Shown: positions 3,682-29,767, counted from the stretch's first letter. The stretch is 36,800 nucleotides of DNA from Acidithiobacillus sp. (GCF_023255755.1 NZ_JAGDVS010000066.1:1-36800); one strand, 5' to 3'. Made by a program: numbers and translations. Notes: a model not told the origin generated them from the sequence alone.

Positions 3682-3739
3682 TATTTTACCCCCCAGTACC
3701 TGTGCGCAAAATGGTATTACACTTGACCAACAACAATAC

Positions 3740-7780: not shown

Positions 7781-8215
7781 TCACTTGCCAGGCCTTTGCA
7801 AGTCTGCTGGCCCGAAGCTATTGGGCAACAACTCGCTAAACGTCATTCGTTGCGGACTGCCCGCCAGCATCGACGTGTAGACCCACATCGATGGCCCGGC
7901 AAATTCATTGAGCCGCTGACGACAAGTCCCACACGGCCACGCCGGAGAGTGCCCTTTGCAGGCGATGTAGGCTGCCCGAATAGGTGTCCTGCCAAGAGTG
8001 GCGACCATCTGGCCGATCGCCACCGCCTCGGCACAGAGGCCGGAAGGATACGCTGCATTTTCAATGTTACAGCCCTGAAAAATACGCCCAGACTCGGTGA
8101 GCAGTGCCGCGCCCACCGGAAAATGGGAGTAAGGTGCGTAAGCGTGTTCCAGAATCGCTTCTGCAGCCTGGCGTAACTGGGCGAGCGTCGCCACCGAAAT
8201 GTCCGAGAAGATCAA
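7781..8215 (-). CDS. cdd: Cytidine deaminase (homotetrameric CDA type), TTG start
   Basis: The ORF track extends to 8413 inside the permease gene, but homology starts only near 8215. There TTG overlaps the permease stop (TTGA), with AGGA about 9 nt upstream. This gives 144 aa, the usual size. The zinc site is complete: Cys61 and catalytic Glu63 in SGLCAE, Cys95 and Cys98 in PCGTC. YSHFPVGAAL and GCNIENAAYPSG are family substrate-site segments. It hydrolyses cytidine or deoxycytidine to uridine plus ammonia in the cytoplasm. It is last in the unit TonB receptor 2, NCS1 permease, deaminase, so it probably acts on imported pyrimidine nucleoside. The non-ATG overlapping start suggests translation coupled to the permease. 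Confidence 0.9.
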   Translation of the reverse strand: MIFSDISVATLAQLRQAAEAILEHAYAPYSHFPVGAALLTESGRIFQGCNIENAAYPSGLCAEAVAIGQMVATLGRTPIRAAYIACKGHSPAWPCGTCRQRLNEFAGPSMWVYTSMLAGSPQRMTFSELLPNSFGPADLQRPGK

Positions 8216-9609: not shown

Positions 9610-11945
9610 CAAAATACCATTTTCACTGTACCAAAGAACGAGCGTGGCATCATCGGCTCTGCGACGAGGTAATTGCCGGGCTGATTATTAATATAGGGGA
9701 ACTGCTTTTCCAGAACCGACGCTTCGGAGTTCAGGAGATTCACCCCGCTCAAGCTGAGCGTCACACTTTTTAACCCGTACTGATGTATCTGAAAGGTATG
9801 CGCGAGATTGAAGTTCATGGTTGCGTAGGCAGGCATACTAATAGAAGTTGGCGCACCGGTGCTTGCCTCAATATATTGCGGCCCAACCAGATTGCCGTAT
9901 AGTCTCGCCCGCGTGTTCATGTAGTGCCCTAATATCCCGATACCCGCCAGATAGGTGGGCGTATTTGCCCGCGGCTCTCCAATGCTGGTGGCAACGCCAT
10001 AGGCGCTTGACGAGTTTGAGGTGTAATGCGCATCCTGAAGCGAATAGTTGCCATAAACAGACAGATAATTATCCAACGCGTAAGCCGTCGCAATATTGAT
10101 GCCCTGATACGACGACGAGCCAATATTGTATTCATAAGTCAGCCCTGTTGTTGTATCATAGTAGGAGCTGAACGTGTGCATAAAGTCCGATCGATAGAAC
10201 GAAATACTCGCATCAATACCAGCATGGCTGTATGCCGCTCCAAATTGATACGTATTGACTTGCTCTGGTTTTATCGTCACCGGCGTCGCTGGTGACGTCG
10301 ATGTGGCATTACTATCCGCTGCATAAAATGCAGTGATATTCGGATACTTGTACCCGACCGCATAGTTGGCATAAAGAGTTACCGATCTTATCGGCTTATA
10401 CTGAATGCCAACGTATGGGCTCACCTCGCTGTAAGAGCGGCCACTGCTCGCACCTACGGTGTAGTAGTATCCCGGTACATCATTGATATGCGTGCTTACC
10501 GCCTCATATTTCAGACCAGGGGTAATCGCCAAAGAACGTGTCGGCTTGATTTTGGCCTGCGCATAGAGTTTACCGTACAGACGCCATGCATGCTCGTCCC
10601 AGAGATCATTGTAACCAGCCAGTTCAGGGACATTTGGGCTACCGTAGACATAGTCCCGTGAATGATACTGAGAGACCGCGCCCAGTCCTCCCGCTTTCAA
10701 GTCCACATAATGATTGAGCCATTCGACAGAGGGATTAAAACCGAAGGTATTTGTCGTGTAGCTATAACTATGGTAATTATCCCCGTTAATAGTTTGCGCC
10801 TGACACGCCGCAGAAGAGTTACCCGAAAAATCGTTACCAGAATACTGGCAGACAGTTTGGGCCGGGTTAAGATAAAAGGTGACAAAGCTGTTATACGGCG
10901 TATTGACACTGGGATTCACATATTCCAAACGATTGGAATTGGTGTAGGCATAAAACCCCTTAAATCCAAAAACGGCGTGAGAAGATATGAGCGTTTTATT
11001 CTGCACAATAGTCATCATGTGTTCCGCCGTGCTATTCGCATAAGTGAAGGACAGCGGCCATTGGTAATTGGGTCCATATTGCTGCAACAGCGCGACCGGC
11101 ATTCGCGCTGCGGTGGCGCCCTTATTTTTGTTCAACAAAAATATGACTGACCACTTGGAGGTCGGCGAAATTTGTGGCAAATCATAGGCCGCATAGTAGG
11201 AATATTCGCGATCAGGACTGTGGTCCAGGTAGCCTGCAGTCTGGCGCGAAGAAAATCTCAGCAGGAGGTTACCATAGCCAGGGTTTGCACCGGTGTTGAT
11301 CTCGGCGCCATAGCTGCGCGTGTCAAAAGAACCATAGCCAGCAAATACCGACTCGTAACGTTTTGCCGAAGGAATCTTCGGCAGATAATCAATATTCCCG
11401 CCAATAGCCCCGACGGCGTTGATATCTGGTGATGGAGTGCCATAGGTCACCCGGATGCCCGAAGTTTCACCCAGCGTGACCGGGATGAGATTCGTCAAAT
11501 CTGCATAATTGTTATTGCCTCCGGATAAGCCGCCATTGAACAAATCAGCAATGGGCAGATTATCAAAGGTGTAGCCCACTTGTGTCTGAGAGAAGCCACG
11601 TACGGAAATATGGGTCTTGACGCCGATGGGGTTCGTACTGGTGGCATTGACCCCAGGTACGAAACTCAGAATGGTCGAGGCATTTTGCGTCGATTCCTGA
11701 CCTTCCAGGAATTTTTTGGGAATCAGCGCCGTTTCTGCACCGAACACCGGCTTTATATGGGTGAGTGCCGCCTTCTCTACGGTTCGCAGTAAGTTCTTGG
11801 AGACGGATTTGATCTTATATATTTTTTTGGCCGGGGGCGGCGTGGCGGTGGTCACTTCTGCATAGACCGGCATAAGTGAGGCACCCAGTAACCCTGTTGC
11901 CACCAACAAGCTCTGTCTCAAAATATATTTATTGGCTTTGTTCAT
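9609..11945 (-). CDS. TonB-dependent outer-membrane receptor (paralogue 2)
   Basis: 778 aa from ATG 11945, with GGAG about 9 nt upstream. A signal peptide ends near MPVYA. A periplasmic Pro/Lys linker (TPPPAKKIYKIKS) is followed by a plug at about residues 75-185 (STILSFVPGVNATS, ISVRGFSQTQVGYTFDNLP, VGAIGGNIDYLP). The long barrel ends in the canonical terminal Phe (GTVKMVF). It shares conserved blocks with receptor 1. It is first in an operon with an NCS1 permease and cytidine deaminase and has a sigma-54 promoter, arguing for import of a nitrogen-rich nucleoside or nucleobase rather than iron chelates (inference). Energy would come from ExbB-ExbD-TonB, such as the set encoded at 28472-30472. 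Confidence 0.92.
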   Translation of the reverse strand: MNKANKYILRQSLLVATGLLGASLMPVYAEVTTATPPPAKKIYKIKSVSKNLLRTVEKAALTHIKPVFGAETALIPKKFLEGQESTQNASTILSFVPGVNATSTNPIGVKTHISVRGFSQTQVGYTFDNLPIADLFNGGLSGGNNNYADLTNLIPVTLGETSGIRVTYGTPSPDINAVGAIGGNIDYLPKIPSAKRYESVFAGYGSFDTRSYGAEINTGANPGYGNLLLRFSSRQTAGYLDHSPDREYSYYAAYDLPQISPTSKWSVIFLLNKNKGATAARMPVALLQQYGPNYQWPLSFTYANSTAEHMMTIVQNKTLISSHAVFGFKGFYAYTNSNRLEYVNPSVNTPYNSFVTFYLNPAQTVCQYSGNDFSGNSSAACQAQTINGDNYHSYSYTTNTFGFNPSVEWLNHYVDLKAGGLGAVSQYHSRDYVYGSPNVPELAGYNDLWDEHAWRLYGKLYAQAKIKPTRSLAITPGLKYEAVSTHINDVPGYYYTVGASSGRSYSEVSPYVGIQYKPIRSVTLYANYAVGYKYPNITAFYAADSNATSTSPATPVTIKPEQVNTYQFGAAYSHAGIDASISFYRSDFMHTFSSYYDTTTGLTYEYNIGSSSYQGINIATAYALDNYLSVYGNYSLQDAHYTSNSSSAYGVATSIGEPRANTPTYLAGIGILGHYMNTRARLYGNLVGPQYIEASTGAPTSISMPAYATMNFNLAHTFQIHQYGLKSVTLSLSGVNLLNSEASVLEKQFPYINNQPGNYLVAEPMMPRSFFGTVKMVF

Positions 11946-12217: not shown

Positions 12218-13138
12218 ATGAAACACCTGCGCCTGTTTAATTACATTGATACGATTGTCAGGGAAGGCTCAGTCCGTCGCGCGGCCGAAAAGCTGCATAT
12301 CACGGCATCGGCACTGGACCGCCGCGTTCAGGATCTGGAAGAAGAATTGGGCACCGGCATTTTCGAGCGGCATCCGCGCGGAATGCGCCTCTCGGCCGCA
12401 GGAGAGGTTTTCTTGGGTTATGTGCGCCGCCACCTTTCCGACATGCAGCGCTTACGCTCAGAAATAGATAGCCTCAACGGTCTTCGCCGCGGCCATGTTG
12501 CCCTCGCGGTCAGCCCCGCATTGGCGGCCGATTTCATCCCGAGAATTATTAATACATTCAGGGAGCAGTATCCGGGGGTTTCCTTCTCGGTGACTGTAGC
12601 GAAACACAGCGATGCGATTCGTGCGCTGCTCGCATTTGAAGCCGATCTGGTGGTCATCGTGGCGCCGCCCCGACACCCAGACGTTATCGACCTCGCCATA
12701 TCCGAGCAGCCTTTGGTGGCGGTTATGGACTGCACGCACCCTCTTGCCAGCCAGGGTACGCTTCGCTTGAGCGATTGCATCCAGTATCCCTTGGTATTGC
12801 CGACCCCGGGGCTTACCTCGCGCGAAATGCTGGAGTCTGTGCTCCATAGTCGACGATCAGAAACCCATGTCGCCGCCGAGACCAACTCCTATGAGGTGAT
12901 GCGTGGCCTACTGTACGGCACGCAAAACGTTGGCTTCGTCATTTCAACGGGGATACCCAAAAATCGCGTCAACGAAAATATCGTGTATCGGCCGATTTCT
13001 GCCGTGGACATCCGCCCCGTGCCATTAGTATGTGCACAACTCAAAAGCCGAGGGATTTCAGTCTCTGCCGCCCGTTTTTCCAACTACATAGCAGAGGAGC
13101 TAAATAATATGAGCCTGGCCGAACAGCATACGGGTTAG
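12218..13138 (+). CDS. LysR-family transcriptional regulator
   Basis: 306 aa from ATG 12218, with GAGG about 8 nt upstream. Residues 1-60 form the winged helix-turn-helix (LRLFNYIDTIVREGSVRRAAEKLHITASALDRRVQDLEEELG). Residues about 90-295 form the LysR substrate-binding domain (HVALAVSPALAADFIP onward). It is the only convincing plus-strand gene, divergent from the receptor 2 operon and convergent with the end of the 18-gene purine operon (31-nt gap). LysR proteins usually control a divergent neighbour in response to a pathway metabolite, so a purine or pyrimidine intermediate is a reasonable effector guess. The HTH has ASALDRRVQDLE where many family members have QPALSRQIRxLE, so the recognition helix is somewhat unusual. 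Confidence 0.93.
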   Translation: MKHLRLFNYIDTIVREGSVRRAAEKLHITASALDRRVQDLEEELGTGIFERHPRGMRLSAAGEVFLGYVRRHLSDMQRLRSEIDSLNGLRRGHVALAVSPALAADFIPRIINTFREQYPGVSFSVTVAKHSDAIRALLAFEADLVVIVAPPRHPDVIDLAISEQPLVAVMDCTHPLASQGTLRLSDCIQYPLVLPTPGLTSREMLESVLHSRRSETHVAAETNSYEVMRGLLYGTQNVGFVISTGIPKNRVNENIVYRPISAVDIRPVPLVCAQLKSRGISVSAARFSNYIAEELNNMSLAEQHTG

Positions 13139-13169: not shown

Positions 13170-14789
13170 TCACGGCACCGCCACGCCGCCATCACTGCGA
13201 GGATCAGCAGCACCGGCAAATCCGCCCTGCGGGTCACGCGCTACCATACCCGCGTGACCCATAAAATCACTGTAATCGGGCACCCACGATAGCTGATGTC
13301 CCCAGCGGCGCAAATCCTCGAAAACGGCGCGGGGATATCGCCGCTCCAGACGCAAACCCGCCGAAGCTTCCCCCCAGGTACGCCCGTATAGCCAGCGCGG
13401 ACTGGCTACCGACTCGGCGAGGGAAAGCTCATATTGCTTGACGCGCATGAGCAGCGCTGCCTGGGTTTGGGGTTGGCCATCCCCCCCCATGCTGCCGTAG
13501 GCGAGTTGCACTCGCCCCTGCTCGGCATAGAGCGCTGGATTAAGGGTATGGAAGGGGCGTTTCCGAGGCTCCAGTACATTGACGTGTCCCGGTTCCAGAG
13601 AAAAGGCACAGCCGCGATTATTCCACAGCACCCCGGTATTGCCCGCCACCACGCCAGTGCCAAACTCGTGGTAGAGGCTCTGAATCACGCTCACCATCCG
13701 CCCTTGCCCATCCACCACCCCAAACCAGACCGTGTCACCTTTGGCGAGTCCAATGGGCGGCAGAGGCATCGCGATAAGGGGATGTATCTCTCTGGCGCAG
13801 TCATCCAGAAAATCCGGATTCAGCAATGATGCAATATCCACATCGCAAAAGTCAGGATCCGCTACTAGCTGGTCCCGGTACTTAAAGGCCAGTTTGGTGA
13901 TTTCTACCGTGTGATGAATCAGTTCCGCGCCCAGATGGTCCCCGCTGTTGAGTCCAACGCGATTGAGCAGGGCGAGGATCATGAGTGAGGCTACCCCTTG
14001 GGTGGGCGGCGGCATATTGATAGCCTCGCCGATACCGAAGGCGGTGCGCAACGGTTCCACCCAGCGGGGCTTGAAGGCCCGCAAATCGGCTTCTGTCAGC
14101 AGACTGCCGGCGGCTTTGAGACCCTTCGCCATTTGCCAGGCGAGCGGACCGTGATAAAAAGCCTCTGCACCATTCTCCGCCAGAGTCCCGAGAGTTTGTG
14201 CCAGCGCCCGTTGACTCCACAGTCGCCCGGTTGGCATTATCTCCCCCCCCGGCATGTATTGCGCTGCAAAACCCGGCTGCTGACGGAGCGCGTCGCCAAA
14301 TCTGGTGAGGGTATGGCTCTGGTTAGGGCTGAGCGGAAAACCGGTGGCGGCGTGGCAATAGGCGCTCTCCAGCAAATCGGACCAGGATTTACGGCCCCGC
14401 CAGCGATCCCTGGAGAACCCAAACGCCGCCCCCCAGCCGCCCACCGCACCCGGCACCGTCAAAGCGGACAAGCCACCACGGAACGGAATCTCGCGCAGCC
14501 CCCGGTCACGAAACAGCGCCGCCGAATAGTGTCGCCCGGCCGGACCAGCGGCGGCCAGTCCGCGCACCGTGTGCGCATCGCCGTCCGATATCAGCCAGAA
14601 CCCATCACCCCCCAGTCCGTTCATGTGGGGATAGACCACAGAGAGGGTCGATGCCACCGCGATACCCGCCTCTATGGCGTTACCACCGCTGCGCAAAATA
14701 GCGGCCCCGGCCTCGGCCGCCAGCGCGTGCGGAGCACTCACGGCACCACCCTCCGAGCTCGCCGATAAGGAGATTTGAATGGATTTCAC
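13170..14789 (-). CDS. hpxW: Oxamate amidohydrolase HpxW-like (gamma-glutamyltransferase family)
   Basis: The ORF track starts at 15074 inside the upstream gene. GTG 14789 overlaps the upstream stop as GTGA, has GAGG about 9 nt upstream and begins where homology starts, giving 539 aa. It is an N-terminal-nucleophile hydrolase of the GGT family: the propeptide is about residues 1-352, and self-cleavage is expected before Thr353 in KGDTVWFGVVDGQG. GLGGDGFW and SMGGDGQPQTQ are family substrate-loop motifs. No signal peptide is apparent, unlike true periplasmic GGT. In Klebsiella the HpxW member hydrolyses oxamate to oxalate and ammonia. The neighbouring hpxX, hpxY and hpxZ homologues are the main reason for choosing this over glutathione hydrolase. 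Confidence 0.8.
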   Translation of the reverse strand: MKSIQISLSASSEGGAVSAPHALAAEAGAAILRSGGNAIEAGIAVASTLSVVYPHMNGLGGDGFWLISDGDAHTVRGLAAAGPAGRHYSAALFRDRGLREIPFRGGLSALTVPGAVGGWGAAFGFSRDRWRGRKSWSDLLESAYCHAATGFPLSPNQSHTLTRFGDALRQQPGFAAQYMPGGEIMPTGRLWSQRALAQTLGTLAENGAEAFYHGPLAWQMAKGLKAAGSLLTEADLRAFKPRWVEPLRTAFGIGEAINMPPPTQGVASLMILALLNRVGLNSGDHLGAELIHHTVEITKLAFKYRDQLVADPDFCDVDIASLLNPDFLDDCAREIHPLIAMPLPPIGLAKGDTVWFGVVDGQGRMVSVIQSLYHEFGTGVVAGNTGVLWNNRGCAFSLEPGHVNVLEPRKRPFHTLNPALYAEQGRVQLAYGSMGGDGQPQTQAALLMRVKQYELSLAESVASPRWLYGRTWGEASAGLRLERRYPRAVFEDLRRWGHQLSWVPDYSDFMGHAGMVARDPQGGFAGAADPRSDGGVAVP

Positions 14790-15394
14790 AGAATGGACCT
14801 CAGTTTGTGACGCGCTGAACACCATTCCCGGCGGGTGTTTAGCCGGGAATAACGTAAAAAGTGGTTCCACGGCAAGCGAATATGCTCTGCCGCCGACAAA
14901 TAACCCAGTTGCCGATCTAACCTTGCATCGGCTGCATTCACAGGCACTGCGCAGAGTGACTGTGACCAACACTGCGACACCATCAGCGGATGCCCGCCGC
15001 CACCCCAGCGATCTATCGGACTTGCTGCCGCAATATTCGGAGCATGCGCGATGCGCCGCAGTTGCCTGAGCCACGGCGCGGGTGGCAAAATCGTGTCTAC
15101 CGGCACCACTAGTGCGGGGCCAGATGGATTATGCAGCCCCACTTGGAGCGTCGAGAAAGGCCCATGCCTTGCCCGAAAGTTATGCCGTCTCATGGCACGG
15201 CGATGCAGACAAGCCAAAACCCGCCGTGGCCGGTACCCCGTCACCAGATACACCGGGGCAAACCCCGCCTGCCGCAGGATATCCACCTGCCGGTCAATCC
15301 AGCTCCGGCCATCGCCGGGCAGACCTCTGCACGCTTTGTGCTGTCGTCCGGAGCGCCGGGACTGGCCGCCCGCCAGAATGATGGCTGCATCCAT
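14786..15394 (-). CDS. MobA/MocA-like nucleotidyltransferase
   Basis: 202 aa from ATG 15394, 8 nt after the hpxZ stop. The N-terminal MDAAIILAGGQSRRSGRQHKACRG is the nucleotide-binding LAGGxSxR(M/S)G...K signature of the MobA-like NTP transferase domain (PF12804). A WGGGGHPLMVS segment follows later. Family members such as MocA and MobA attach CMP or GMP to molybdopterin. In an operon with xanthine dehydrogenase and xdhC, maturation of the molybdenum cofactor is the natural role. The second half is Arg-rich and poorly conserved by eye, so the exact nucleotide and acceptor are open. It interrupts the hpxXYZ-hpxW gene set. Confidence 0.75.
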   Translation of the reverse strand: MDAAIILAGGQSRRSGRQHKACRGLPGDGRSWIDRQVDILRQAGFAPVYLVTGYRPRRVLACLHRRAMRRHNFRARHGPFSTLQVGLHNPSGPALVVPVDTILPPAPWLRQLRRIAHAPNIAAASPIDRWGGGGHPLMVSQCWSQSLCAVPVNAADARLDRQLGYLSAAEHIRLPWNHFLRYSRLNTRREWCSARHKLRSIL

Positions 15395-15402: not shown

Positions 15403-15789
15403 TTAAGTTGCCTTCGGCATCAAGCTCACATGCGCCGCGACGACACGCCAACCCTCTGGCGTGCGTATCCAGGTCTGACTTTGTCGGCCATGCACCTGTT
15501 CGCGCCGGAACTCCGTGTTGGCAGTCGCAAAGCCTTGTCCATAGGTGGTGATCGTCGTATTGACCAACTCCCGATGCAGCGCCGGGGCTGGACGGGATGC
15601 CCGAAACTCGGCAATGGCCGCATAGCCGTAGAGATTTTCTGCCACTCCATAGCGCAAGGTGTGTACGCTATTCCAAAATAACTCGTCCAATACATGAACG
15701 TCGTTTTCAACCAATGCTTTTTCATAACGGAAAAAAGCGGCCTGCACTTCTTGTAAGACTTCGGGCGCATTGATTTCGGCGTGAACCAT
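15403..15789 (-). CDS. hpxZ: HpxZ/AtzH-like protein (DUF3225, SnoaL-like fold)
   Basis: 128 aa from ATG 15789, with AGAGGA about 9 nt upstream and a 13-nt gap after hpxY. The ORF track start at 15957 is too long. [52 protein letters not shown] and [24 protein letters not shown] match the small cystatin/SnoaL-like proteins encoded beside AtzE-type amidases (AtzH in s-triazine operons, HpxZ in Klebsiella hypoxanthine operons). HpxZ is assigned to oxalurate catabolism with HpxX and HpxY; AtzH has been described as acting on a carboxybiuret-type intermediate. Its biochemical role here is inferred from context. Confidence 0.85.
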
Positions 15790-15802
15790 GGGATTTTTCC
15801 TC

Positions 15803-17200
15803 TTAGCGGGTGGGGATTGGACTGGTAAATCCGTGCAACTCAAGCTGTCTTGCGACTTTGAATATTCGCGCCTCCTGCCAGGGTGCGGCGATAATCTGGA
15901 CCCCGATAGGCATCGCCCCCGCACTGGCCACGGGCACCACCACCACCGGGAGACCAATGAAGGAGAGGGGTTGGGTGTACAAGCCCAGATGCGGTCGCAC
16001 CATCATTTGCTCCCCATCCAGTTCCATATAGCGCTGCCCGATGGCGGGCGCCGACATGGGCGTGGCCGGTGCCAGCAGCAGGTCATAGCGCGCGAAAACC
16101 TTGAGTACCTCAGCCCGATACCAGCGCCGGAAACGTTGGGCCTGAATATTCCAGGACGCGGGCAATAGCGTACCGGCCAGCATGCGGTCCCGCACGTCCG
16201 GATCATAATCGGCAGCGTGATGACGCAAACGGTCCAGATGCAGGTTGCTGCTTTCGGCATTGGTGATGAGATAGGCGGCGGCACGTGCCTGCGCGGTTCC
16301 GGGAAATTCGACGAGGTCAGTCACATTCAATGCCGCCGCGACCCGCGCCAGTGCCTGCTCCGCTGCTGGCGTCGCCTGTTGGGTGAAATAGCCGGCGGCA
16401 ATGGCGATTTTCAGGCCGGCGACACCGTCTGCCAGACTTCCACTGACCGCCTCACTCGCCCTATCCGCGCAAACGGGGTCCGCGGCATCGGTCCCTTGCA
16501 TGGCATCATAGGCCAGAGCGAGATCCGTCACGCTACGCGCCAGCGGGCCGACATGATCGAGACTAGGACAAAAAGGGAAGGCCCCGGCCCGGGACAGGCG
16601 GCCATAGGTCGGCTTCAGCCCAAAAATACCGCAAAGGGAAGACGGCACCCGAATAGAACCATTGGTGTCAGAACCCAGGGCGATGGGCACCATGCCTGCC
16701 GCTACAGCGGCACCGCTGCCACCACTGGACCCGCCGGTCATTCGCAAGCGGTCATGGGGATTGCGGGAAGGCCCATAGTGAATATTTTCACCCGTAAAAT
16801 CGTAGGCATACTCACCCATATTAAGGGCGCCCACCACGATGGCGCCCGCTGCCGTGAGCCGCCTTACGGCGGTGGCGTCCGTTACGGCGGGGGCATCTGT
16901 TTGATTGATCTTGGACCCAGCGAGGGTAATCTCGCCCTGCAAATCAAAAAGATTTTTGACCGCAAAGGGCACCCCCGCCAGAGGCCCGGGGTCTTCGCCC
17001 CGCGCCACCTTCTGGTCCACTGCCTCTGCTTCCCGTAGGGCACGCGCTTCCGTGATGCAGGTGAAGGCATTGATCTCGCCGTTATGGGCGTGGATATGCC
17101 GGAGCGTCTCCTGCACCACCTCCGCGGCACGCCACTCGCCGCTACGGACCCGTTGCGCAATTTCCTGCGCCTGCGGAAATGCGTCGTTCTCTGGCTTCAT
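15803..17200 (-). CDS. hpxY: AtzE/HpxY-family amidase
   Basis: 465 aa from ATG 17200, which overlaps the hpxX stop as ATGA; the ORF track start at 17308 is not needed. It is an amidase-signature enzyme with a full Ser-cisSer-Lys triad: Lys82 in VPFAVKNLF, cis-Ser158 in [12 protein letters not shown] and nucleophile Ser182 in [13 protein letters not shown]. It resembles AtzE (1-carboxybiuret hydrolase) and HpxY (oxalurate catabolism) and is paired with the small DUF4089 subunit, as AtzE is with AtzG and GatA with GatC. The likely substrate is a linear ureide such as oxalurate, or the product of the AtzD-like enzyme in the same operon. Confidence 0.87.
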
Positions 17201-17397
17201 GGACGAAATACCGGGGCCAAATCTTCCGTCATATCCACCGGATGCGCTTCCAGCACCTTGGCCATCCGCGCACTCAGCATGAAATAATGTTTTACCTCTG
17301 CACGCCATTCTTCGCGCACACTGAGCCCCATAGAATCGAAGAGATAGTTCATATACGTATCCACGGGCGTATCAGCATCTGTTCCGGGCGGATTCAT
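17197..17397 (-). CDS. hpxX: HpxX/AtzG-like small amidase subunit (DUF4089)
   Basis: 66 aa from ATG 17397; the ORF track start at 17592 lies inside xdhC. The protein is one helical hairpin (VDTYMNYLFDSMGLSVREEWRAEVKHYFMLSARMAKVLEAHPV), the GatC-like layout of AtzG and HpxX. In the triazine pathway AtzG is needed for a soluble, active AtzE amidase. The gene ends in an ATGA overlap with hpxY, consistent with fixed subunit stoichiometry. It sits 16 nt after xdhC. Confidence 0.85.
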   Translation of the reverse strand: MNPPGTDADTPVDTYMNYLFDSMGLSVREEWRAEVKHYFMLSARMAKVLEAHPVDMTEDLAPVFRP

Positions 17398-17413
17398 CCT
17401 GCTTTTCCTTTTG

Positions 17414-18355
17414 TTAAAAATCAGCTTTTTTTTGCCGTAATTGCAGCAACTCTGCCAATACACTGATCGCGATCTCCGGGGGCTTTTTACCGAGTCCTGG
17501 CAAACCCATGGGCATGTGCAAACAGTCCGGAATATCCTGTCCGGCGCGGGACAGGGCGTGACTAAAACGCGCCGCTTTGGACCGACTGGCAATGACCCCG
17601 AGATAAGCCAAGGGTTTCCCGATAAAATGCTCCAGCAACGCGTAATCCATGGCGTGGCTGTAGGTCATGATGAGCACCATGGCATCGGTTGCCGGAGCCT
17701 GCAGATCTGCCCAGGTCCAAGTGTCCACCAGGGTAACTTCTGGCGGAAAGGCGGCAGGATCGGCCCATTCCGGGCGCTGATCGAATACGAATGACGCTAA
17801 ATCCAGTTTGCTGGCCATGCTGGCGATCGCCCGTCCTACATGCCCCGCACCGAAAATCCATAGCGGCTGATGGTGGGCAGCGGGCAGCGCGAAGTGCCGC
17901 TCCTCTACATCCATACCGGGAACGTCAGCATGCAAAAGCACGGTCATGGCATCAAATGGACCGATTTGCCGTCCCAGACGGGTAATCCCGGCCAGGAGCT
18001 GCAACCGGCCTGCTGAATCCCGTTGATAGAGACGGGAGGCGCCAGACTGGTACAGCTCGGAAAAAAACCGGGGTACATCCAGCACACAGATTTCTACTTG
18101 CCCACCACAGCACTGATCATCCGCCGTGCCCAAAGTAAAATTCAGCAATGCCGGGGATGCTTCAGAACGGGGCGTGCGCAACACCTGACAGATCTGATAT
18201 TCCATGCGACCACCACCTACCGTGCCCAGCAGGGAGCCATCTTCCAACAGACGCATACTGGCCCCGACCGCCGTGGGCGCAGATCCCCGCACCCGGGTCA
18301 CAACCGCTTCCCGGACCGGAAGCAAGGGCCGCTGACGACTGGCGAGGGCATTCAT
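17414..18355 (-). CDS. xdhC: XdhC-family molybdenum cofactor insertion/sulfuration factor
   Basis: 313 aa from ATG 18355 (ATGA overlap with the AtzD-like gene); the ORF track extension to 18514 is spurious. The N-terminal XdhC/CoxI domain shows EAVVTRVRGSAPTAVGASMRLLEDGSLLGTVGGGRMEY. The C-terminal Rossmann domain has WIFGAGHVGRAIASMA, and LGVIASRSKAARF follows. XdhC binds Moco, promotes its sulfuration and passes it to xanthine dehydrogenase. Its presence in the operon supports a purine-hydroxylating rather than CO-dehydrogenase role for the Mo enzyme. Confidence 0.9.
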   Translation of the reverse strand: MNALASRQRPLLPVREAVVTRVRGSAPTAVGASMRLLEDGSLLGTVGGGRMEYQICQVLRTPRSEASPALLNFTLGTADDQCCGGQVEICVLDVPRFFSELYQSGASRLYQRDSAGRLQLLAGITRLGRQIGPFDAMTVLLHADVPGMDVEERHFALPAAHHQPLWIFGAGHVGRAIASMASKLDLASFVFDQRPEWADPAAFPPEVTLVDTWTWADLQAPATDAMVLIMTYSHAMDYALLEHFIGKPLAYLGVIASRSKAARFSHALSRAGQDIPDCLHMPMGLPGLGKKPPEIAISVLAELLQLRQKKADF

Positions 18356-19443
18356 GAGGCGTACCCGATCACGGCCACCGGCCCGCCCCCCTGGGGACCC
18401 TGATGCTCCGCGCGCGTCGAGACATAGACGCCGGTTTCCCCCGTGACCCCGGCCAACAAGGCGGAGACTACACAGCGGGAATAGCGCATATCGGAGATAT
18501 CCGCGTCTGTCCACATGGTATGACGACGATGGCGGATATGGCCTCGCGGGTCGGCATCGGATTTGGCGAAGACCGCCAGCACCTTCTCCGCATCGACAGT
18601 CGCTAACTGCCCGTTGACGGGCTGCAGTCCCAACTGATTCAGCACAGCATGGATCGCCGGTACATCGATGATGTCCTGCATCACCCCGTGGGCGATGACC
18701 AGATCACCGTCCCACCAGCACGAATTGGCGAAGAGCACTATTTCGGAGCGCTGCAATAAGGGTTTGGCGGAAACGCTGGCCCGACTGGAGTACAAGGACC
18801 AGTCCCGGTTGATGGCGTCATCCGACAGTTCGGATTCGGTCACCTCACCCAAAGCGAGGGCCACCCCCAGGGCAGAAGCGCCGCGTGACCAGGCCATGTC
18901 ACAGCGCAGGTGCTCGGCACGGACGTTTCCGGTCGTTGTCGAGTCCAGCGCTGGTATCGCCCCTTTGATCTGCACCAGATGCACATCCGCAGGCTCAACC
19001 TGCAAGGCATGCATGAGCCAGGTGACCGCGCGGGCGGTTTCCCGCACCATCGCCATCCGCCCCACTTCCTGCGCGCTAAAAGGGCGGGTATGGGCGGATG
19101 CAAGCGCCAGACGTTTTATCGGATACGCTTGCTTAGCCGCCCGACCTGATACCGAAAACACCAGAATATGCGGCGCCGCAACCCCTTCACTACCGCCCGA
19201 AAAGGACAACACCACACGTTCTTCCACCAACTCTGGACGGCAATCCAAATGCGTTGCCAGCAGCTGGCTCAAAGCCATCATCGCCAAAGCCCGGGTAAAG
19301 TCGTTTATGCCGCCATTACCCTCGGTTTTGCCTATAATCGCGACGATGCTCTGGGGATCTATCGTCCCCTCGGCAATCGCCCGGGCCAGTCCGGAAACGT
19401 CGGCAGGGTCTGTCGTAAAAAACCGGTAGACGGAGGTACGCAT
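18352..19443 (-). CDS. AtzD/barbiturase-family ring-opening amidohydrolase
   Basis: 363 aa from ATG 19443, 18 nt after the AllA-like gene. It is a three-repeat protein of the cyanuric acid hydrolase/barbiturase family, which opens cyclic imides with Lys-Ser pairs. All three pairs are visible: Lys39 (IIGKTEGNGGINDF) with Ser82 (FSGGSEG), Lys160 (VQIKGAIPAL) with the SSRASVSA serines near 220-224, and Lys294 (FAKSDAD) with Ser342 (VSTRAEHQGPQGGGPVAVI). Known substrates are cyanuric acid and barbiturate. The neighbours (xanthine dehydrogenase, AllA-like, HpxXYZ) make cyanuric acid unlikely. Barbiturate from uracil, or an unknown cyclic product of purine breakdown, fits better. The true substrate cannot be deduced. 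Confidence 0.87.
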   Translation of the reverse strand: MRTSVYRFFTTDPADVSGLARAIAEGTIDPQSIVAIIGKTEGNGGINDFTRALAMMALSQLLATHLDCRPELVEERVVLSFSGGSEGVAAPHILVFSVSGRAAKQAYPIKRLALASAHTRPFSAQEVGRMAMVRETARAVTWLMHALQVEPADVHLVQIKGAIPALDSTTTGNVRAEHLRCDMAWSRGASALGVALALGEVTESELSDDAINRDWSLYSSRASVSAKPLLQRSEIVLFANSCWWDGDLVIAHGVMQDIIDVPAIHAVLNQLGLQPVNGQLATVDAEKVLAVFAKSDADPRGHIRHRRHTMWTDADISDMRYSRCVVSALLAGVTGETGVYVSTRAEHQGPQGGGPVAVIGYAS

Positions 19444-19461
19444 GGTCTTCGCCTTCTGCGA

Positions 19462-20046
19462 TTAAAAGGGAACCCGGAGTACCCGCCCGGTGCGACGTTG
19501 GATGTCGATCTTGAACACGTCACCGTCATCCATCTCATCTGCTGCCTGAGCGTTCGCCAAGGCAGTGACCACCTCATCAGAATTCATGGTCATCACCGTC
19601 ACCGGATCGCCAATAGACATTGGGAAATCGTGCCAGGTACCCGCATGAATCATCACCCCCTGCCCCGCTGGAATGCGAAAAGCGCGGACGTCTTCCAGGC
19701 GGGGGGCATTTTCCCCGCTGCCCTGATTGGGTTTACCCAGCACCATGGCAAAGGGAATGCTGCCCAACCCGACAAAAATCTGCGTCATGTTGAGGTGCCG
19801 TTCCAGCCAGGTAATCTCGGGACTGCGGCGCGATATCCGCGCCGTGCGGACCACCGCGCGACCGGTATATTCAAAATCGAGATTTTGCCCCTCTTCCACA
19901 CTCCCCTTATAAAAGGGGATGGAAAGTCCGGGCCGGTGTACCGCCTCACCAATCATCACCCCGTATTCCGCGAGGTTCTCCGGCGTAGCATCCAGCAATG
20001 GGACATCTACATAAACCGCTTCTGTCTGTTTTGCATAGGCACCCAT
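19462..20046 (-). CDS. Ureidoglycolate lyase-like (AllA family) protein
   Basis: 194 aa from ATG 20046, 3 nt after the FAD subunit stop, with GGAG about 10 nt upstream. The cupin-like C-terminal half has FRIPAGQGVMIHAGTWHDFPMSIG, the hallmark of ureidoglycolate lyase/hydrolase (PF04115), and LDFEYTGRAVVRTARI earlier. AllA splits ureidoglycolate to glyoxylate plus urea in allantoin degradation. It is longer than E. coli AllA (about 160 aa) because of an N-terminal extension and a C-terminal tail. No allantoinase or allantoicase lies nearby, so it may act on a different ureide here, for example the product of the AtzD-like enzyme. Confidence 0.75.
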   Translation of the reverse strand: MGAYAKQTEAVYVDVPLLDATPENLAEYGVMIGEAVHRPGLSIPFYKGSVEEGQNLDFEYTGRAVVRTARISRRSPEITWLERHLNMTQIFVGLGSIPFAMVLGKPNQGSGENAPRLEDVRAFRIPAGQGVMIHAGTWHDFPMSIGDPVTVMTMNSDEVVTALANAQAADEMDDGDVFKIDIQRRTGRVLRVPF

Positions 20047-20049: not shown

Positions 20050-20916
20050 TTAATTCTCCTTTTTTGATTCACTGCGTTTATGTATGGCCTCCAGCACCAG
20101 CCGGGAAGCTATCTCCAAACGATATGCCGTCGTCGAGCGGATATCCTGAATGGGTGCAATATCCTGCTTTACCTTCTGACGCACCTGCATGTCAGCAATA
20201 TCACACAACGCACGCCCCAGCAGATATTGGCTCACGGATGGCAAGGCACAGGGAGTCGCCGCCACACTCGCCATGCCGAAATGCGCGCTCTGAATAATTC
20301 CATCACTATTTACTTCGATAAGCGCCGCGATACTCACCTTGGCAATAGCTTGCGCTGCCCGTGTTCCGACCTTCCGAAAATAGCCGCGACTGTGTTTAGG
20401 GGGGTAAGGAATCCAGAGCGCGCTGAGTAACTCTCCGGGTTGCAAGGCCGTCTTGCGATACCCCAGATGGAAATCTCCATAAGGCAACCAGCGCGAGCCG
20501 TGATGATGGACGATCTCCAGACGTGCGCCATAAGCCAGCAACGTCGGCGCATTGTCCGCCGCGGGGGAGGCATTGCAAACATTGCCACCCAGCGTGGCGC
20601 GGTTTTGAATGGGCGGCGCCCCGGTCACCGCCGCCGAGGCGGCCAGCATCGGCCAGTGGGCGACTACTTCCGCATGCCGACGAATCGCTTCCAGGGAAGT
20701 AGCGGCGCCAATCCGGATGCCCTCTTCGGTAATTTGCAGCCCCTGCAACTCCCGCAGTCCGCTGATGTCCAGCCAGGACTCCGGGCGCCGTTCCGGGGCG
20801 AGATGACACTCCACCATAAGATCGGTCCCGCCCGAAATCACCCGATATGGGCCGGGGGCTGTCGCCAATATCTCCAGGGCTTCCGGCAAATGTCGCGGCC
20901 TTATCCAATCAGACAT
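20050..20916 (-). CDS. Xanthine dehydrogenase FAD-binding subunit
   Basis: 288 aa from ATG 20916, which overlaps the 2Fe-2S gene by 8 nt and has GGAGGG upstream; the ORF track start at 20964 is too early. The FAD-binding fold of the CO-dehydrogenase flavoprotein family is clear: YRVISGGTDLMVE near residue 25, RIGAATSLEAI, and TLGGNVCNASPAADNAPTLLAYGA near 105-130, followed by the C-terminal CODH_FAD_C domain. It passes electrons from the iron-sulfur subunit to NAD+ or another acceptor. It forms a heterotrimer with the two upstream gene products. Confidence 0.92.
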   Translation of the reverse strand: MSDWIRPRHLPEALEILATAPGPYRVISGGTDLMVECHLAPERRPESWLDISGLRELQGLQITEEGIRIGAATSLEAIRRHAEVVAHWPMLAASAAVTGAPPIQNRATLGGNVCNASPAADNAPTLLAYGARLEIVHHHGSRWLPYGDFHLGYRKTALQPGELLSALWIPYPPKHSRGYFRKVGTRAAQAIAKVSIAALIEVNSDGIIQSAHFGMASVAATPCALPSVSQYLLGRALCDIADMQVRQKVKQDIAPIQDIRSTTAYRLEIASRLVLEAIHKRSESKKEN

Positions 20917-21367
20917 CAGCAAACCCTCCGGCGACCTGGGCGATGGCCGCATAAATGCGCCCATACCCGGTACAGCGACAGAGATTGCCGCTCAGGCCCC
21001 AGCGAATCTCCTCCAGGGTCGGATTCGCATACTCCGCCAACAGAGCGGTCGCCGCGAGCATCATACCCGGTGTACAAATTCCGCACTGGGTAGCACCGCA
21101 CTGAACAAAAGCTTGTGCCAGAGCACTATCTTCGGGAAGGCCCTCTACCGTGGTAATCTCCGCCCGTTCCATCTGCCCAAGAGGAACCAGGCAACTATTC
21201 ACCAGCCTGCCATTCACCAGCACCGCGCAGGCGCCACATTCTCCTTCGCCGCAACCTTCTTTGGTCCCCTTGAGGTCGCATTCATTACGCAATACATCCA
21301 GTAAACGGGCATTCGGCGCTGAGCTGCTCTGAAATGCTTTACCATTGATGCGCATCGTCGTCGACAT
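20909..21367 (-). CDS. Xanthine dehydrogenase 2Fe-2S subunit
   Basis: 152 aa from ATG 21367, 2 nt after the molybdenum subunit stop, with GAGGG 8 nt upstream. Two [2Fe-2S] sites are intact: the ferredoxin-type site in KEGCGEGECGACAVLVNG plus a later NSCLV Cys, and the four-helix-bundle site in QCGICTPGM and LCRCTGYG. It relays electrons between the Mo centre and FAD. Normal length for the family. Confidence 0.93.
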   Translation of the reverse strand: MSTTMRINGKAFQSSSAPNARLLDVLRNECDLKGTKEGCGEGECGACAVLVNGRLVNSCLVPLGQMERAEITTVEGLPEDSALAQAFVQCGATQCGICTPGMMLAATALLAEYANPTLEEIRWGLSGNLCRCTGYGRIYAAIAQVAGGFADV

Positions 21368-21369
21368 GA

Positions 21370-23628
21370 TCAATTCCCTCTGCTCATCGTCAGCTCCAGC
21401 AGCATTTCGGGCTTGACCGGAATCTGGCAAATATCGATATCCAAGGCCTGCTGAATCGCATTGACGATAGCGGGTGCTGGACCATCCATGGGTAATTCAC
21501 CGACGCCTTTCGCCCCTTTAGGACCAGCTCCCAAGCCGCCTTCCAGCAACACCACATGCATAAATCCCAAATCCGCGCTGGTGGGTATGATGTAATTGGT
21601 CAGACGGTCATTGGCCATGACCCCGCGCTCATTCCAGAGCACATCCTCATAGAGGGCATAACCAATACCCTGGGCAACACCCCCCTCAATCTGGCCCTGC
21701 ACAATCACCGGATGCACCGCATCGCCGATTTCCTGTACCGCGGTAAAATCAAGCACCCGCGTTTCGAGCGTCAACACATCCACTTCCACTTCGGCAATAT
21801 AAGCCGCCCAGGCATAACTGGCGTAAGCCCGCCCCAAAAAGGCCTGCTCATCCCAACGCATGTCCGTCGGCGGCTGGTACTGTGCGGTCACCAGCGTATC
21901 CCCGGCGACTGCGCACAGCCGGGCACACGCTGCGGCAAAACTTTGTGCGTCATGAGGCGCCGCCAACTCCGCCGTTTCCCGTAGCCGTTGCAATAATTGT
22001 CCCGCCGCCTTCTGGATGAGCTCCCCGACCACCATACAGGTGCGGGAGGCGACCGTCGGTCCGGAATTTGGCACCCTGGAGGTATCCGCCTGCGCCAGAT
22101 GCACGCGATCCATGGGCAGGCCCAGCGCGTCAGCCGCAATCTGGACCAGCGTGGTCGCCGCACCCTGCCCCATTTCGGTGTTGGAACAGAGAATTTCGAC
22201 GTGCCCATTGGCCAGGGCTTGCAGAGAGACCCGGGACGCCAGATGCAATTCACCGTTGCCGGTAAAACCGGCACCATGGGCAAAAGTCGCCAGACCAATG
22301 CCTTTGCGGGTCTGATGTCCGGCCGCATTCCAGGCCCTGTACTCCGCCAGCCGCTGGTAATAATGCGTATGTTCCAATGCCACATCGAGGGTGGCATGGG
22401 CAAAACAGTCAGCACCCACCACATCACCCGTGGGATTCACATCGCCGGTGCGCAACAAATTTATCCGGCGCAATTCGGCAGGGTCCATAGCCAGTTTTCT
22501 CGCCAGCCGGTCCATGGCCACTTCCATGGCAAAAATGCTTTGCGGCGCACCAAATCCGCGAAATGCACCAAAGGGCGGATGGTTGGTCGCGACGGCGCGC
22601 CCCCTGACCCGAATGTGGGGGCACTTATATGGTCCCGGTGCATGGATAACACCACGGGAGAGCACTACCGGACTGAGGGTACGATAAGCCCCGCCATCAA
22701 TGGCGAAATCCATATCGATAAACTGCAATTCTCCGGCCTTGTTGGCCCCCAGACTAATCAGGGTACGGGAAGGATGACGCTTGGGCGTCACCCGCAAATC
22801 CTCGCCCCGCTCATAAACAAGTTTTACCGAACGGCCCCCCGCTTTGAGCGCCAGCAACGCCGCATGGCAAGCAATCACCGAGGGGTAATCTTCCTTGCCG
22901 CCAAAGGCCCCACCAGTGGTACTTTGCACCACCCGCAGATGATCCTTATCCATCCCCATACACTGAACCAACGCGTCCAGCACATAGTAGGGACACTGCA
23001 TGGAACCTTCTACCAGAATGCTGCCGTCTTTCTGCAAATGCGCCAGCATCCCTTGCGGCTCAATATAGAGCTGCTCCTGGGACGGGGTGAGAAAGCGCTC
23101 TTCGATGACGACATCGGCAAGATGCTCCCCCTCCGCAACATCACCCCGATCCAGAAGATAATCTGTATAAATATTGCCGGGTATGATTTCTTGTTGCGCA
23201 GCGAGTGCCGCATCAATATCAAAAATCGGCGCGGTATTGGGCAACTCCACCAAAGAAACACCCTTCAGCGCCATTCCGAGTTTCTCCGGATCCGCGTGGG
23301 CCAGCAATACCACTGCCTCCCCAGCGTGCCGAAATGCGCGATCAACGAGCACTACCTGATCGTTCTCCAGGAGCTTTACGGCGTTCATACCCGGAATATC
23401 TCGCGCCGTGACCACCACAAATTCCGACCAGTCTATGGCAGGATCGAAAACCACCTCCTGCAGCGTTCCACCCGCCGCAGTAGTGCGCACCGTCGCGCCA
23501 TGGAGCACGTCTGCGCAGGGCAGGTCATCGACATAGAGCGCCGTCCCCCTGATTTTGGCAACGCCATCGACACGGCGGGGGCTCGCCGTCTGCTGGTCAG
23601 TTCGCTGCTTCACCAAGGTCAAAGACAC
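21370..23628 (-). CDS. Xanthine dehydrogenase molybdopterin-binding subunit
   Basis: 752 aa from GTG 23628, with AGGAG 8 nt upstream. The a/b hammerhead domain begins RVDGVAKIRGTALYVDDLP. Moco-binding motifs follow: QEQLYIEPQG, TGGAFGGKE, FRGFGAPQ (the Arg equivalent to the purine-binding Arg of XDH), TEMGQGAATTLVQIAADALG and GAKGVGELPMDGPAPA (the catalytic Glu near the C-terminus). It hydroxylates hypoxanthine and xanthine, or possibly another N-heterocycle such as uracil. It comes first among the three xdh genes, in the order Mo, FeS, FAD. Upstream guanine and adenine deaminases would supply xanthine and hypoxanthine. Confidence 0.92.
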   Translation of the reverse strand: MSLTLVKQRTDQQTASPRRVDGVAKIRGTALYVDDLPCADVLHGATVRTTAAGGTLQEVVFDPAIDWSEFVVVTARDIPGMNAVKLLENDQVVLVDRAFRHAGEAVVLLAHADPEKLGMALKGVSLVELPNTAPIFDIDAALAAQQEIIPGNIYTDYLLDRGDVAEGEHLADVVIEERFLTPSQEQLYIEPQGMLAHLQKDGSILVEGSMQCPYYVLDALVQCMGMDKDHLRVVQSTTGGAFGGKEDYPSVIACHAALLALKAGGRSVKLVYERGEDLRVTPKRHPSRTLISLGANKAGELQFIDMDFAIDGGAYRTLSPVVLSRGVIHAPGPYKCPHIRVRGRAVATNHPPFGAFRGFGAPQSIFAMEVAMDRLARKLAMDPAELRRINLLRTGDVNPTGDVVGADCFAHATLDVALEHTHYYQRLAEYRAWNAAGHQTRKGIGLATFAHGAGFTGNGELHLASRVSLQALANGHVEILCSNTEMGQGAATTLVQIAADALGLPMDRVHLAQADTSRVPNSGPTVASRTCMVVGELIQKAAGQLLQRLRETAELAAPHDAQSFAAACARLCAVAGDTLVTAQYQPPTDMRWDEQAFLGRAYASYAWAAYIAEVEVDVLTLETRVLDFTAVQEIGDAVHPVIVQGQIEGGVAQGIGYALYEDVLWNERGVMANDRLTNYIIPTSADLGFMHVVLLEGGLGAGPKGAKGVGELPMDGPAPAIVNAIQQALDIDICQIPVKPEMLLELTMSRGN

Positions 23629-23689: not shown

Positions 23690-24718
23690 TCATGCAGCGC
23701 CCTTTAACAGGTGCGCGATAACGGCCTTGGTGACGATCACCGCATTACGCTCGGCGAGGGCACTGGCATATAAATCGCCTGTTTTCCAGATTTCTTCTTC
23801 GGTTTTACCGGGGGGCGGAACATCCACGTCAGAGATCCCCCGTATGGACAGATAATGATCCGCCAAACCGAAACGCGAGAGCACGGCCACGTCCCCGAGA
23901 TCCTCCATGGCGGTATTGGTATATTTCACCTCGCCATGGGTATAGCGACGCACAATCTGTTCGGCAATAGCCTGATTCGCTTTACCGATCCAAAAATCAT
24001 TGCCGGTGATAGTGGCGCCCACCATCACCTTCGGCGCCGCAGAAATAGCAAACATTTTATCCAGTTTCTTCGCTTCTGCCGAGTTTTCAAGCGCGACATG
24101 GGCCGAGGCATTTACCGCCATATTCAGCAGGGCCGGATTGATTTTATACGCCAAATTTTCCATGATATTCTGGGTGTAATTTCCGCAGTGACCCGGCGTG
24201 GCATAATCCGCGCAGCCCGGAGGGGACCATGCCAACTGCTTTTGATCACTCAGGTAATGATGTCCAAAAGCCCAGGAGATTACCCAGCTATTGATATACA
24301 CACTGCCCAATGCAGAGTCTTCTTTGTCCACACCGCCCGCAATGCCGCTGCGAATAAAAATAGTCTTCTTCAGATCCAGAGTCGCGTCTTTCACCAGACT
24401 GGTGACGGTGACTGCGGCATTGATTTCCCCTTCCCCGGTCTCCGTAACACAGACGCCTTTGCTGTCGCAGATCAGGGGCTTAATGAGTCCTGGCACATGC
24501 AAGGCTTGATGCTGGAAAGATTTTTGCACTGTCCATGCTTGCCACTCGGGCGGGAATGCCGTCAGCACGATCACTTTCGGGCGCATTTTCGCCGCCGCCG
24601 GTATAGCCTGGGCGTAGGCCAGTGGCGCTATCCATGAGAGGCTGACTGCACCACATAACATCATATGCTTCCAAACCGTATTTTTCTTCACGAACATTCT
24701 CCCTGGTGAGTTTTTCAT
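23690..24718 (-). CDS. Secreted NUP-family protein (purine nucleoside permease family, PF06516)
   Basis: 342 aa from ATG 24718, which overlaps the adenine deaminase stop as ATGA; the ORF track start at 24790 is not needed. A signal peptide is visible (hydrophobic MMLCGAVSLSWIAPLAYAQA). Family blocks are PKVIVLTAFPPEWQAW, the ETGEGEINAA turn, KTIFIRSGIAGGVD, YTNTAMEDLGDVAVL and ISDVDVPPPGKT. The annotation 'permease' is historical: there is no membrane segment after the signal, and the fold is that of nucleoside phosphorylases, so it is probably periplasmic. It is the third secreted phosphorylase-fold protein in the window and is embedded among cytoplasmic purine enzymes. Confidence 0.85.
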   Translation of the reverse strand: MKNSPGRMFVKKNTVWKHMMLCGAVSLSWIAPLAYAQAIPAAAKMRPKVIVLTAFPPEWQAWTVQKSFQHQALHVPGLIKPLICDSKGVCVTETGEGEINAAVTVTSLVKDATLDLKKTIFIRSGIAGGVDKEDSALGSVYINSWVISWAFGHHYLSDQKQLAWSPPGCADYATPGHCGNYTQNIMENLAYKINPALLNMAVNASAHVALENSAEAKKLDKMFAISAAPKVMVGATITGNDFWIGKANQAIAEQIVRRYTHGEVKYTNTAMEDLGDVAVLSRFGLADHYLSIRGISDVDVPPPGKTEEEIWKTGDLYASALAERNAVIVTKAVIAHLLKGAA

Positions 24719-25758
24719 AATAGGTTCCGCTGGGATGCACCGTACTGATCCAGATCCCTGCGTAGGGATTGCTTTCGTTGGTCCGTACAAAAAGCCGCTT
24801 CAACAGCATTACGCTCAAGAAGTAATGCGTCCTCCGCTGTTAAATCCAGACTGGAAAGTGTCCCAATAATGTTTTCACTCAGGTATCCACCGAAATACGC
24901 CGGGTCATCCGAATGAATCGTCGCCAACAAACCTGCTTTCAACAATCGGCCCAGATTATGTTCAGATAACCGGCTAAACACTTTGAGCGCGACGTTGGAG
25001 AATGGGCAGACCGTCAGCGGGATCCGGTCATCCACCAGGCGACGCACCAGTGCCGGATCCTCCAAACAGCGCACCCCGTGATCTATGCGCTCGACATCAA
25101 GCACATCCAGTGCCTGCCAGATATAGGCGGGCGGCCCCTCCTCTCCGGCATGGGCAACACGATGCAGGCCCATGGACTTGGCCACCTTAAACACCTTCTG
25201 AAACTTTTCTGGGGGATTGCCCATTTCAGCGGAGTCGAGACCAATGCCGGCGATACCCCCCAAAGCACAAGCATGCTCCAACAGCGCCACCGCGGGTTGC
25301 GGGTCGCGATCCCGCTCAAAGCAAAGAATCAGTGCGCTGGATATATGCCAGTCACGCTCGGCGTCCCGCAAGGCGGCGTTGATGCCGCCCATCACCGCCG
25401 CCAATGCCACACCATTGGCAAGATGCGTCTGCGGATCAAAAAACAGTTCCGTATGACGAATCTGCTGGGCTTTACAGCGGGACATATAGGCCAGGGTCAG
25501 TTCATAAAAGTCCCGCTCTTCCCGCAATACGGACGCCCCCAGATAATAGACATTCAGAAAACTTTGCAGATCCTCAAATTGATACGCCGCCCGTGCCGCC
25601 TCTATCGTCTTATAGGGAATATCCACGCCGTTACGCTGGGCCAGCGCGATGAGTAATTCAGGCTCCAGAGTACCCTCAATATGCAAATGCAGCTCTACCT
25701 TGGGCAGATCCTCCACAAAATCTGCCAGTATTCCTTTACTGTTCATCGTACTTTCCAT
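24715..25758 (-). CDS. Adenine deaminase, adenosine-deaminase superfamily (PA0148-like)
   Basis: 347 aa from ATG 25758 (GGAG 11 nt upstream; ATG 25746 is an alternative). The metal-binding LPKVELHLHIEGTLEPELL begins near residue 19. RVAHAGEEGPPAYIWQALD carries the Zn-ligand His and catalytic Glu, ERIDHGVRC follows, and IHSDDPAYFGGY holds the Asp pair. CKAQQIRHTELFFDPQTH and the overall layout resemble the Pseudomonas proteins shown to be adenine rather than adenosine deaminases. The reaction gives hypoxanthine plus ammonia, feeding xanthine dehydrogenase. Adenosine as substrate cannot be excluded by eye. Confidence 0.87.
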   Translation of the reverse strand: MESTMNSKGILADFVEDLPKVELHLHIEGTLEPELLIALAQRNGVDIPYKTIEAARAAYQFEDLQSFLNVYYLGASVLREERDFYELTLAYMSRCKAQQIRHTELFFDPQTHLANGVALAAVMGGINAALRDAERDWHISSALILCFERDRDPQPAVALLEHACALGGIAGIGLDSAEMGNPPEKFQKVFKVAKSMGLHRVAHAGEEGPPAYIWQALDVLDVERIDHGVRCLEDPALVRRLVDDRIPLTVCPFSNVALKVFSRLSEHNLGRLLKAGLLATIHSDDPAYFGGYLSENIIGTLSSLDLTAEDALLLERNAVEAAFCTDQRKQSLRRDLDQYGASQRNLL

Positions 25759-28446: not shown

Positions 28447-28471
28447 CACTTTTTTCTCCCACGCATAAACG

Positions 28472-29230: not shown

Positions 29231-29320
29231 ATAAATTTATTCCCATTTTCGAGCACTGTCGCGCTCGCCAACTGTACGTTTGGCATTCGCTCACTTTTCC
29301 CCAAGTAAAGACGCAACTAC

Positions 29321-29719: not shown

Positions 29720-29767
29720 GTTTTACTCCTTACTTTGCCTGGCAAAATGAAAAAATCTTCCGAAACA

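Follow-up and report, generated by a model that had tools for sequence, protein, structure and literature searches.

We identified an operon in an Acidithiobacillus genome that would scavenge nitrogen from purines by a pathway bypassing the allantoin route, in which the products of two adjacent genes, an AtzD/barbiturase-family amidohydrolase and an AllA-like protein, would open oxidised urate and release urea. We put the probability of this reading at roughly 0.45, its substrates and the order of its steps being those that we infer from the genes present. Gene content, adjacency of the pair, co-occurrence across genomes, absence of the classical urate-degradation genes and a distinct active-site signature point in this direction at the sequence level. 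The operon lies in a stretch of 36,800 nucleotides (the window) belonging to an assembly of 203 contigs that is 96 % complete, and close relatives were compared. Searches of the open-access literature yielded no account of such a set of genes.

Gene organisation of the purine operon

Transcription on the minus strand runs from TonB/ExbD/ExbB through an NCS1 permease, guanine deaminase, adenosine deaminase and a NUP-type nucleoside phosphorylase to the three subunits of xanthine dehydrogenase (XDH), the AllA-like and AtzD-like genes, XdhC, AtzG/HpxY, AtzE/HpxX, AtzH/HpxZ, a small MocA-like gene and the GGT-family HpxW, beyond which lie a divergent LysR gene and then a TonB-dependent receptor. 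Most of the operon genes overlap their neighbours or lie a short distance from them, so that their co-transcription is likely; the AtzD-like and AllA-like genes are 18 bp apart and the AllA-like gene starts 3 bp past that for the XDH FAD subunit. The sequence-only reading had placed the two genes inside a purine operon, between XDH and the hpx genes. Pfam matches and gene order confirm this placement, with the FAD subunit upstream and XdhC and HpxY, X, Z and W downstream on the same strand. The features of the window are as follows.

28472-30472, minus strand: TonB, ExbD and ExbB energising set (domain matches)
27016-28497, minus strand: NCS1 nucleobase permease (PF02133)
25806-27287, minus strand: guanine deaminase-like amidohydrolase (PRK09228/TIGR02967, just under cut-off)
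24715-25758, minus strand: adenosine deaminase (NF006850, 481.5 bits)
23690-24790, minus strand: NUP-type nucleoside phosphorylase-like protein (PF06516) with a signal-peptide-like N-terminus
21370-23628, minus strand: XDH molybdenum subunit (domain match; R. capsulatus XDH residues kept)
20909-21430, minus strand: XDH [2Fe-2S] subunit (domain match)
20050-20964, minus strand: XDH FAD subunit (domain match)
19462-20046, minus strand: AllA-like protein of the ureidoglycolate-lyase superfamily (cupin), 194 aa, predicted urea-releasing lyase (Pfam Ureidogly_lyase PF04115, 47.7 bits, cut-off 23; ERH, Q, WH motif)
18352-19443, minus strand: AtzD/barbiturase-family ring-opening amidohydrolase of a distinct clade, 363 aa (Pfam Amido_AtzD_TrzD, E 1.6e-130; NCBIfam; active-site alignment; tree; AF2)
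17414-18514, minus strand: XdhC, XDH maturation factor (PF13478; TIGR02964 just under cut-off)
17197-17592, minus strand: HpxY/AtzG-like small subunit, domain in the 3' end of the ORF (PF13318)
15803-17308, minus strand: HpxX/AtzE-like N-acylurea amidohydrolase (TIGR02715, 685.9 bits, cut-off 425.75; nearest solved structure AtzE 6c62)
15403-15957, minus strand: HpxZ/AtzH-like protein (NF033625 HpxZ, 195.9 bits, cut-off 135)
14786-15394, minus strand: MocA/MobA-like nucleotidyltransferase, tentative (motif; weak collinear E. coli MocA match; tracks XDH)
13170-15074, minus strand: GGT-family amidohydrolase, HpxW-like, true start about 14760 (PF01019; both 5hft chains among the best PDB matches)
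12218-13138, plus strand: divergent LysR regulator (domain match)
9609-11945, minus strand: TonB-dependent receptor, conserved with the operon (domain match)
7781-9612, minus strand: second NCS1 permease (8212-9612) and cytidine deaminase (7781-8413) (domain matches)

The MocA-like gene, a previously unlisted minus-strand ORF (MDAAIILAGGQSRRSG..., about 200 aa) that is conserved, was seen at those XDH-bearing loci that were checked and is missing from G022, a relative described below. Three nucleoside-phosphorylase-like proteins with signal-peptide-like N-termini are encoded in the window (2623-3750, 6279-7289 and 23690-24790), which suggests periplasmic cleavage of nucleosides coupled to the two TonB receptors and two NCS1 permeases. 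An Rfam search for a xanthine riboswitch gave no match in the window, where only a sub-threshold osmY hit was seen, nor in seven related loci.

Linkage of the pair to purine oxidation

At each orthologous locus examined the AllA-like gene lies next to the AtzD-like gene, the pair forming one unit, and the two also occur as an isolated pair in G043, a distant gammaproteobacterium of another family whose genome has XDH and HpxX as well. Of 29 genomes of the family, each has the AtzD, HpxX and XDH orthologs either all together or not at all, the sole exception being G022, which is without XDH only. In this genome (2 contigs, 99 % complete) no XDH homolog was detectable; XDH, XdhC and the MocA-like gene have been lost and GuaD, ADA, NUP, AllA, AtzD, AtzE, HpxZ and HpxW kept. 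Adjoining its XDH-less operon is a flavodoxin/NAD reductase (CysJ-like) flanked by two VanA-type Rieske oxygenases (G022:C1:2125223-2129771, locus L095), a Rieske pair restricted to G022 among the 30 genomes searched. The Klebsiella hpxDE genes serve to oxidise hypoxanthine to xanthine and then urate (PMC7373994), and by analogy one purine hydroxylase appears to have been swapped for another in G022, the Rieske proteins presumably acting on purines. Replacement of XDH in this way would place the AllA, AtzD and Hpx set downstream of purine oxidation.

The molybdenum subunit encoded in the window keeps the residues aligned with Q197, E232, R310, F344 and F459 of R. capsulatus XDH, in line with the earlier expectation that XDH yields urate; the score of the window enzyme lies under the NCBIfam XDH equivalog cut-offs. 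The hpx genes had been read as consuming oxalurate and oxamate. Homologs of HpxX, Y, Z and W do occur together in one operon, as in the oxalurate/oxamate branch of the Klebsiella hpx system (HpxWXYZ). The locus differs from Klebsiella hpx in that HpxO and allantoinase were not recognised here and the AtzD-like and AllA-like genes are added.

The ring-opening enzyme and its AllA-like partner

The AtzD-like enzyme shares with the cyanuric acid hydrolases (CAHs) AtzD and TrzD (PDB 4bvq, 5t13, 4nq3, 6bum; 42-46 % identity) the Toblerone fold, three Ser-Lys dyads and three arginines. In the alignment the dyads are K39/S82, K160/S225 and K294/S342 and the active-site arginines R51, R187 and R323, and since all of these are kept a cyclic imide hydrolase is expected. 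The enzyme departs from the CAHs at Glu230, a residue reported to be absolutely conserved in the AtzD/barbiturase family (PMC4051656), where it has Leu229; the clade as a whole carries AKP-x-L instead of (A/S)G-(I/V)-E-L. Further changes of the clade are Gly228 to Lys, Gly334-Gly335 to Thr-Arg, KCPLLT to KGAIP and AKAE to AKSD, and the SGG loop after the third serine, the first glycine of which positions the substrate (PMC6557486), is STR in all members. The altered Glu230, Gly228 and Gly334-Gly335 are residues common to cyanurate hydrolases and barbiturase, and in the Moorella enzyme these positions hold a reaction-site arginine and place the substrate (PMC6557486). Loss of an acid together with gain of a lysine and an arginine suggests a larger or more anionic substrate.

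In the tree the enzymes form a monophyletic clade (100/100), the stem of which measures 1.11 changes per column, a length comparable to the 1.35 of barbiturase. An AF2 model (pLDDT 88) matches the structures of cyanurate hydrolase, barbiturase and 5hy0, labelled orotic acid hydrolase in the PDB, which has the same fold (TM about 0.88) and 31-33 % identity. These comparisons point to a predicted new specificity class of ring-opening enzyme, 5hy0 having been compared by fold and identity alone.

The AllA-like protein resembles AllA in its cupin family (PF04115) and in the ERH, Q and WH motif common to both; unlike AllA it falls under all AllA equivalog cut-offs, and by a wide margin (best 38.9 vs 260 bits, NCBIfam), and a source of ureidoglycolate was not recognised. 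AllA releases urea (PMC3793230) and the AllA-like protein is likewise predicted to be a urea-releasing lyase. Its AF2 model was poor (pLDDT 47) and was left out of the analysis.

Classical urate-degradation genes and a candidate route around them

Profile searches identified cofactor-free uricase (PF01014) in none of 17 genomes of the genus (0/17), and HIU hydrolase (PF00576), OHCU decarboxylase (PF09349) and PuuD (PF06181) in none of 15 carriers (0/15 each), while named control genomes were matched; these absences hold in complete single-contig relatives too. No allantoinase was recognised in the window genome, where both cyclic-amidohydrolase homologs found with a dihydropyrimidinase query score as dihydroorotases. 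By inspection, no HpxO was seen among the FAD_binding_3 proteins of this genome that were scanned, the candidates being of UbiH/UbiF-, FixC-, geranylgeranyl-reductase- or halogenase-like types. The search of the window genome for uricase and allantoinase, neither of which was found, thus upholds the pathway hole that had been proposed from the sequence. FAD_binding_3 proteins near the operon in G011 and G014 were likewise rejected as HpxO, being members of a halogenase-like/polyketide-type cluster. The halogenase-like FAD protein of this KS/FabG-type cluster lies just downstream of the purine operon in these two genomes and elsewhere in other relatives (L087-L093).

In the route that we favour, nucleobases would be deaminated to (hypo)xanthine and oxidised by XDH to urate, and the AtzD-like and AllA-like pair would replace HIU hydrolase, OHCU decarboxylase, allantoinase and allantoicase. 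Urate would undergo a two-electron oxidation to 5-hydroxyisourate by an agent for which no gene was found. The AtzD-like enzyme would then hydrolyse the cyclic imide bond (N1-C6) of oxidised urate, either 5-hydroxyisourate or a derived alloxan-type ring, and the AllA-like lyase, working as AllA does on ureidoglycolate, would expel urea from the carbinol-ureide carbon; ring opening and urea expulsion could come in either order. The pair would leave an N-acylurea with a neighbouring keto-acid, of the ureidomesoxalate/alloxanate or oxalurate type, which HpxY-X-Z would turn into a primary amide, CO2 and NH3 by removal of the terminal ureido nitrogen, and HpxW would hydrolyse the remaining amide to a dicarboxylate. 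In Pseudomonas ADP, AtzG-E-H act on the AtzD product (PMC6219798). With a single oxidation the balance would close, urate giving mesoxalate, urea, CO2 and two NH3; all substrates, the enzyme order and the two-electron oxidation of urate are those that we infer.

The chief weakness of this route is the absent urate oxidase: as none was found among the kinds tested, one proposed step is without a gene. Urease is restricted among the carriers to the window genome, G006 and G043, and since most carriers are without it the released urea would often be wasted, which also counts against the route. The urease alpha subunit of the window genome lies at G000:C114:11998-12351.

That the genes amount to a complete alternative to the allantoin pathway is possible, at somewhat less than an even chance: an AtzD-type enzyme with a new specificity, together with an AllA-type lyase, would open the skeleton of urate, free urea and feed an N-acylurea to HpxXYZ. 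The new route put forward by the sequence-only reading is supported by the order and co-occurrence of the genes, by the lack of the classical ones and by the active-site signature, the chemistry given above being a proposal. If the route is correct, the AtzD fold gains a role in nature beyond cyanurate, barbiturate and orotate. A paper on the cyanurate hydrolase structures points out that cyanuric acid is not a known natural product (PMC4051656), leaving the natural role of the AtzD family open, and a clade fixed in a purine operon would supply one such role. Autotrophs that live in acidic, metal-rich waters and depend on fixed nitrogen would then be dismantling purine rings without passing through allantoin intermediates, and to annotate the two genes as cyanuric acid hydrolase and ureidoglycolate lyase would be misleading.

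Alternative roles for the operon

Oxidative breakdown of pyrimidines, the other role raised from the sequence, would have the molybdenum enzyme convert uracil to barbiturate, the AtzD-like enzyme open this to ureidomalonate, HpxXYZ yield malonamate and HpxW malonate. All four chemistries would fit with a single oxidation, and a cytidine deaminase and an NCS1 permease are encoded nearby. The AtzD-like enzyme is of the same family as barbiturase (PDB 5hwe) and has the glycine of the barbiturase motif KTEGNGG, and at a few barbiturase loci of actinobacteria Mo-hydroxylase subunits are encoded 8-10 kb away. We nevertheless consider this role unlikely. The barbiturases of 5hwe and the Blastococcus loci have Asn for the domain-B Arg188, where the AtzD-like enzyme has R187, and keep Glu230; the two groups form separate 100/100 clades with different gene partners, 19 barbiturase loci being without AllA, HpxX, HpxZ or HpxW homologs, and a pyrimidine pathway leaves the AllA-like protein without a role. 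Purines are indicated by the XDH residues and by the Rieske replacement, and relatives encode a reductive uracil pathway at the same locus: in G019 and G022 the genes adjoining the purine operon encode PreA and dihydropyrimidinase, which both score above cut-off, along with a PreT-like protein, an amidase and an omega-aminotransferase (L094, L095). Oxidation of uracil to barbiturate by XDH is thus disfavoured by the XDH residues, the G022 oxygenases, the reductive genes and the position of the clade.

Dihydropyrimidinase orthologs (81-82 %) lie on the contig of the AtzD gene in G002, G006 and G008 and occur also in G010, and G007 has such an ortholog and no AtzD, the purine and reductive pyrimidine modules being gained and lost separately. 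A dihydropyrimidinase ortholog was not found in the window genome, which leaves some room for a pyrimidine role there, but the ancestry that the operon shares with these relatives makes such a role less likely. A protein of 278-281 aa without a Pfam match adjoins the cytidine deaminase in L094 and L095.

Direct hydrolysis, in which the AtzD-like enzyme would open the imide of unoxidised xanthine or urate and the AllA-like protein remove urea from the ureidoimidazole formed, would account for the lack of a uricase of the tested kinds, and the N1 imide of both purines could be open to attack by this fold. With C5 unoxidised, however, HpxX and HpxW, which need a C5-oxidised substrate, would be left without a suitable N-acylurea or alpha-keto amide, and the genes for oxidising xanthine or urate are retained or replaced and never merely dropped, making a purely hydrolytic opening improbable.

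An atzDGEHF-like cyanuric acid operon joined to a purine operon would explain several features. The AtzD-like enzyme passes the NCBIfam CAH equivalog cut-off (NF052395, 398.4 vs 360 bits), a profile score compatible with the conventional cyanurate-hydrolase annotation; its gene is followed by AtzG, AtzE and AtzH homologs in the order of Pseudomonas ADP, and the Azorhizobium CAH is the nearest branch in a midpoint-rooted tree. Against this, Glu230, Gly334 and Gly335 are altered, and unlike CAH loci, which carry BiuH or AtzF, both absent from the window, the AtzD-like gene is strictly linked to XDH, AllA and HpxW. G005, which has an AllA-paired AtzD ortholog, encodes a second, CAH-like homolog of 38 % identity (G005:C46:42516-43598, L047) that keeps the CAH signature at the altered loops and lies near a transporter operon with no AllA beside it. 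We regard a role in cyanurate degradation as very doubtful.

That the pair serves ureides or cyclic ureides scavenged from outside through the TonB receptor, the purine genes being only nitrogen-scavenging neighbours, is highly improbable given its co-occurrence with XDH or the Rieske replacement and its position within the XDH/XdhC block, although the receptor is kept even in the minimal module of the A. caldus megaplasmid (TonB receptor, XDH, AllA, AtzD, XdhC, AtzG, AtzE, HpxZ, GGT and LysR only) and in G043, whose family differs but whose class is the same, the chromosome carries the pair on its own, away from the other purine genes found. The G043 genome also holds an XDH above the xanthine-dehydrogenase equivalog cut-offs and an HpxX homolog (48 %). 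The AllA-like family of Novosphingobium plasmids was set aside as a source of context, its neighbourhoods being unrelated. The XDH-AllA-AtzD-Hpx cassette of the A. caldus megaplasmid is flanked by IS elements (L062, NC_015851.1 11899-36978), which suggests mobility.
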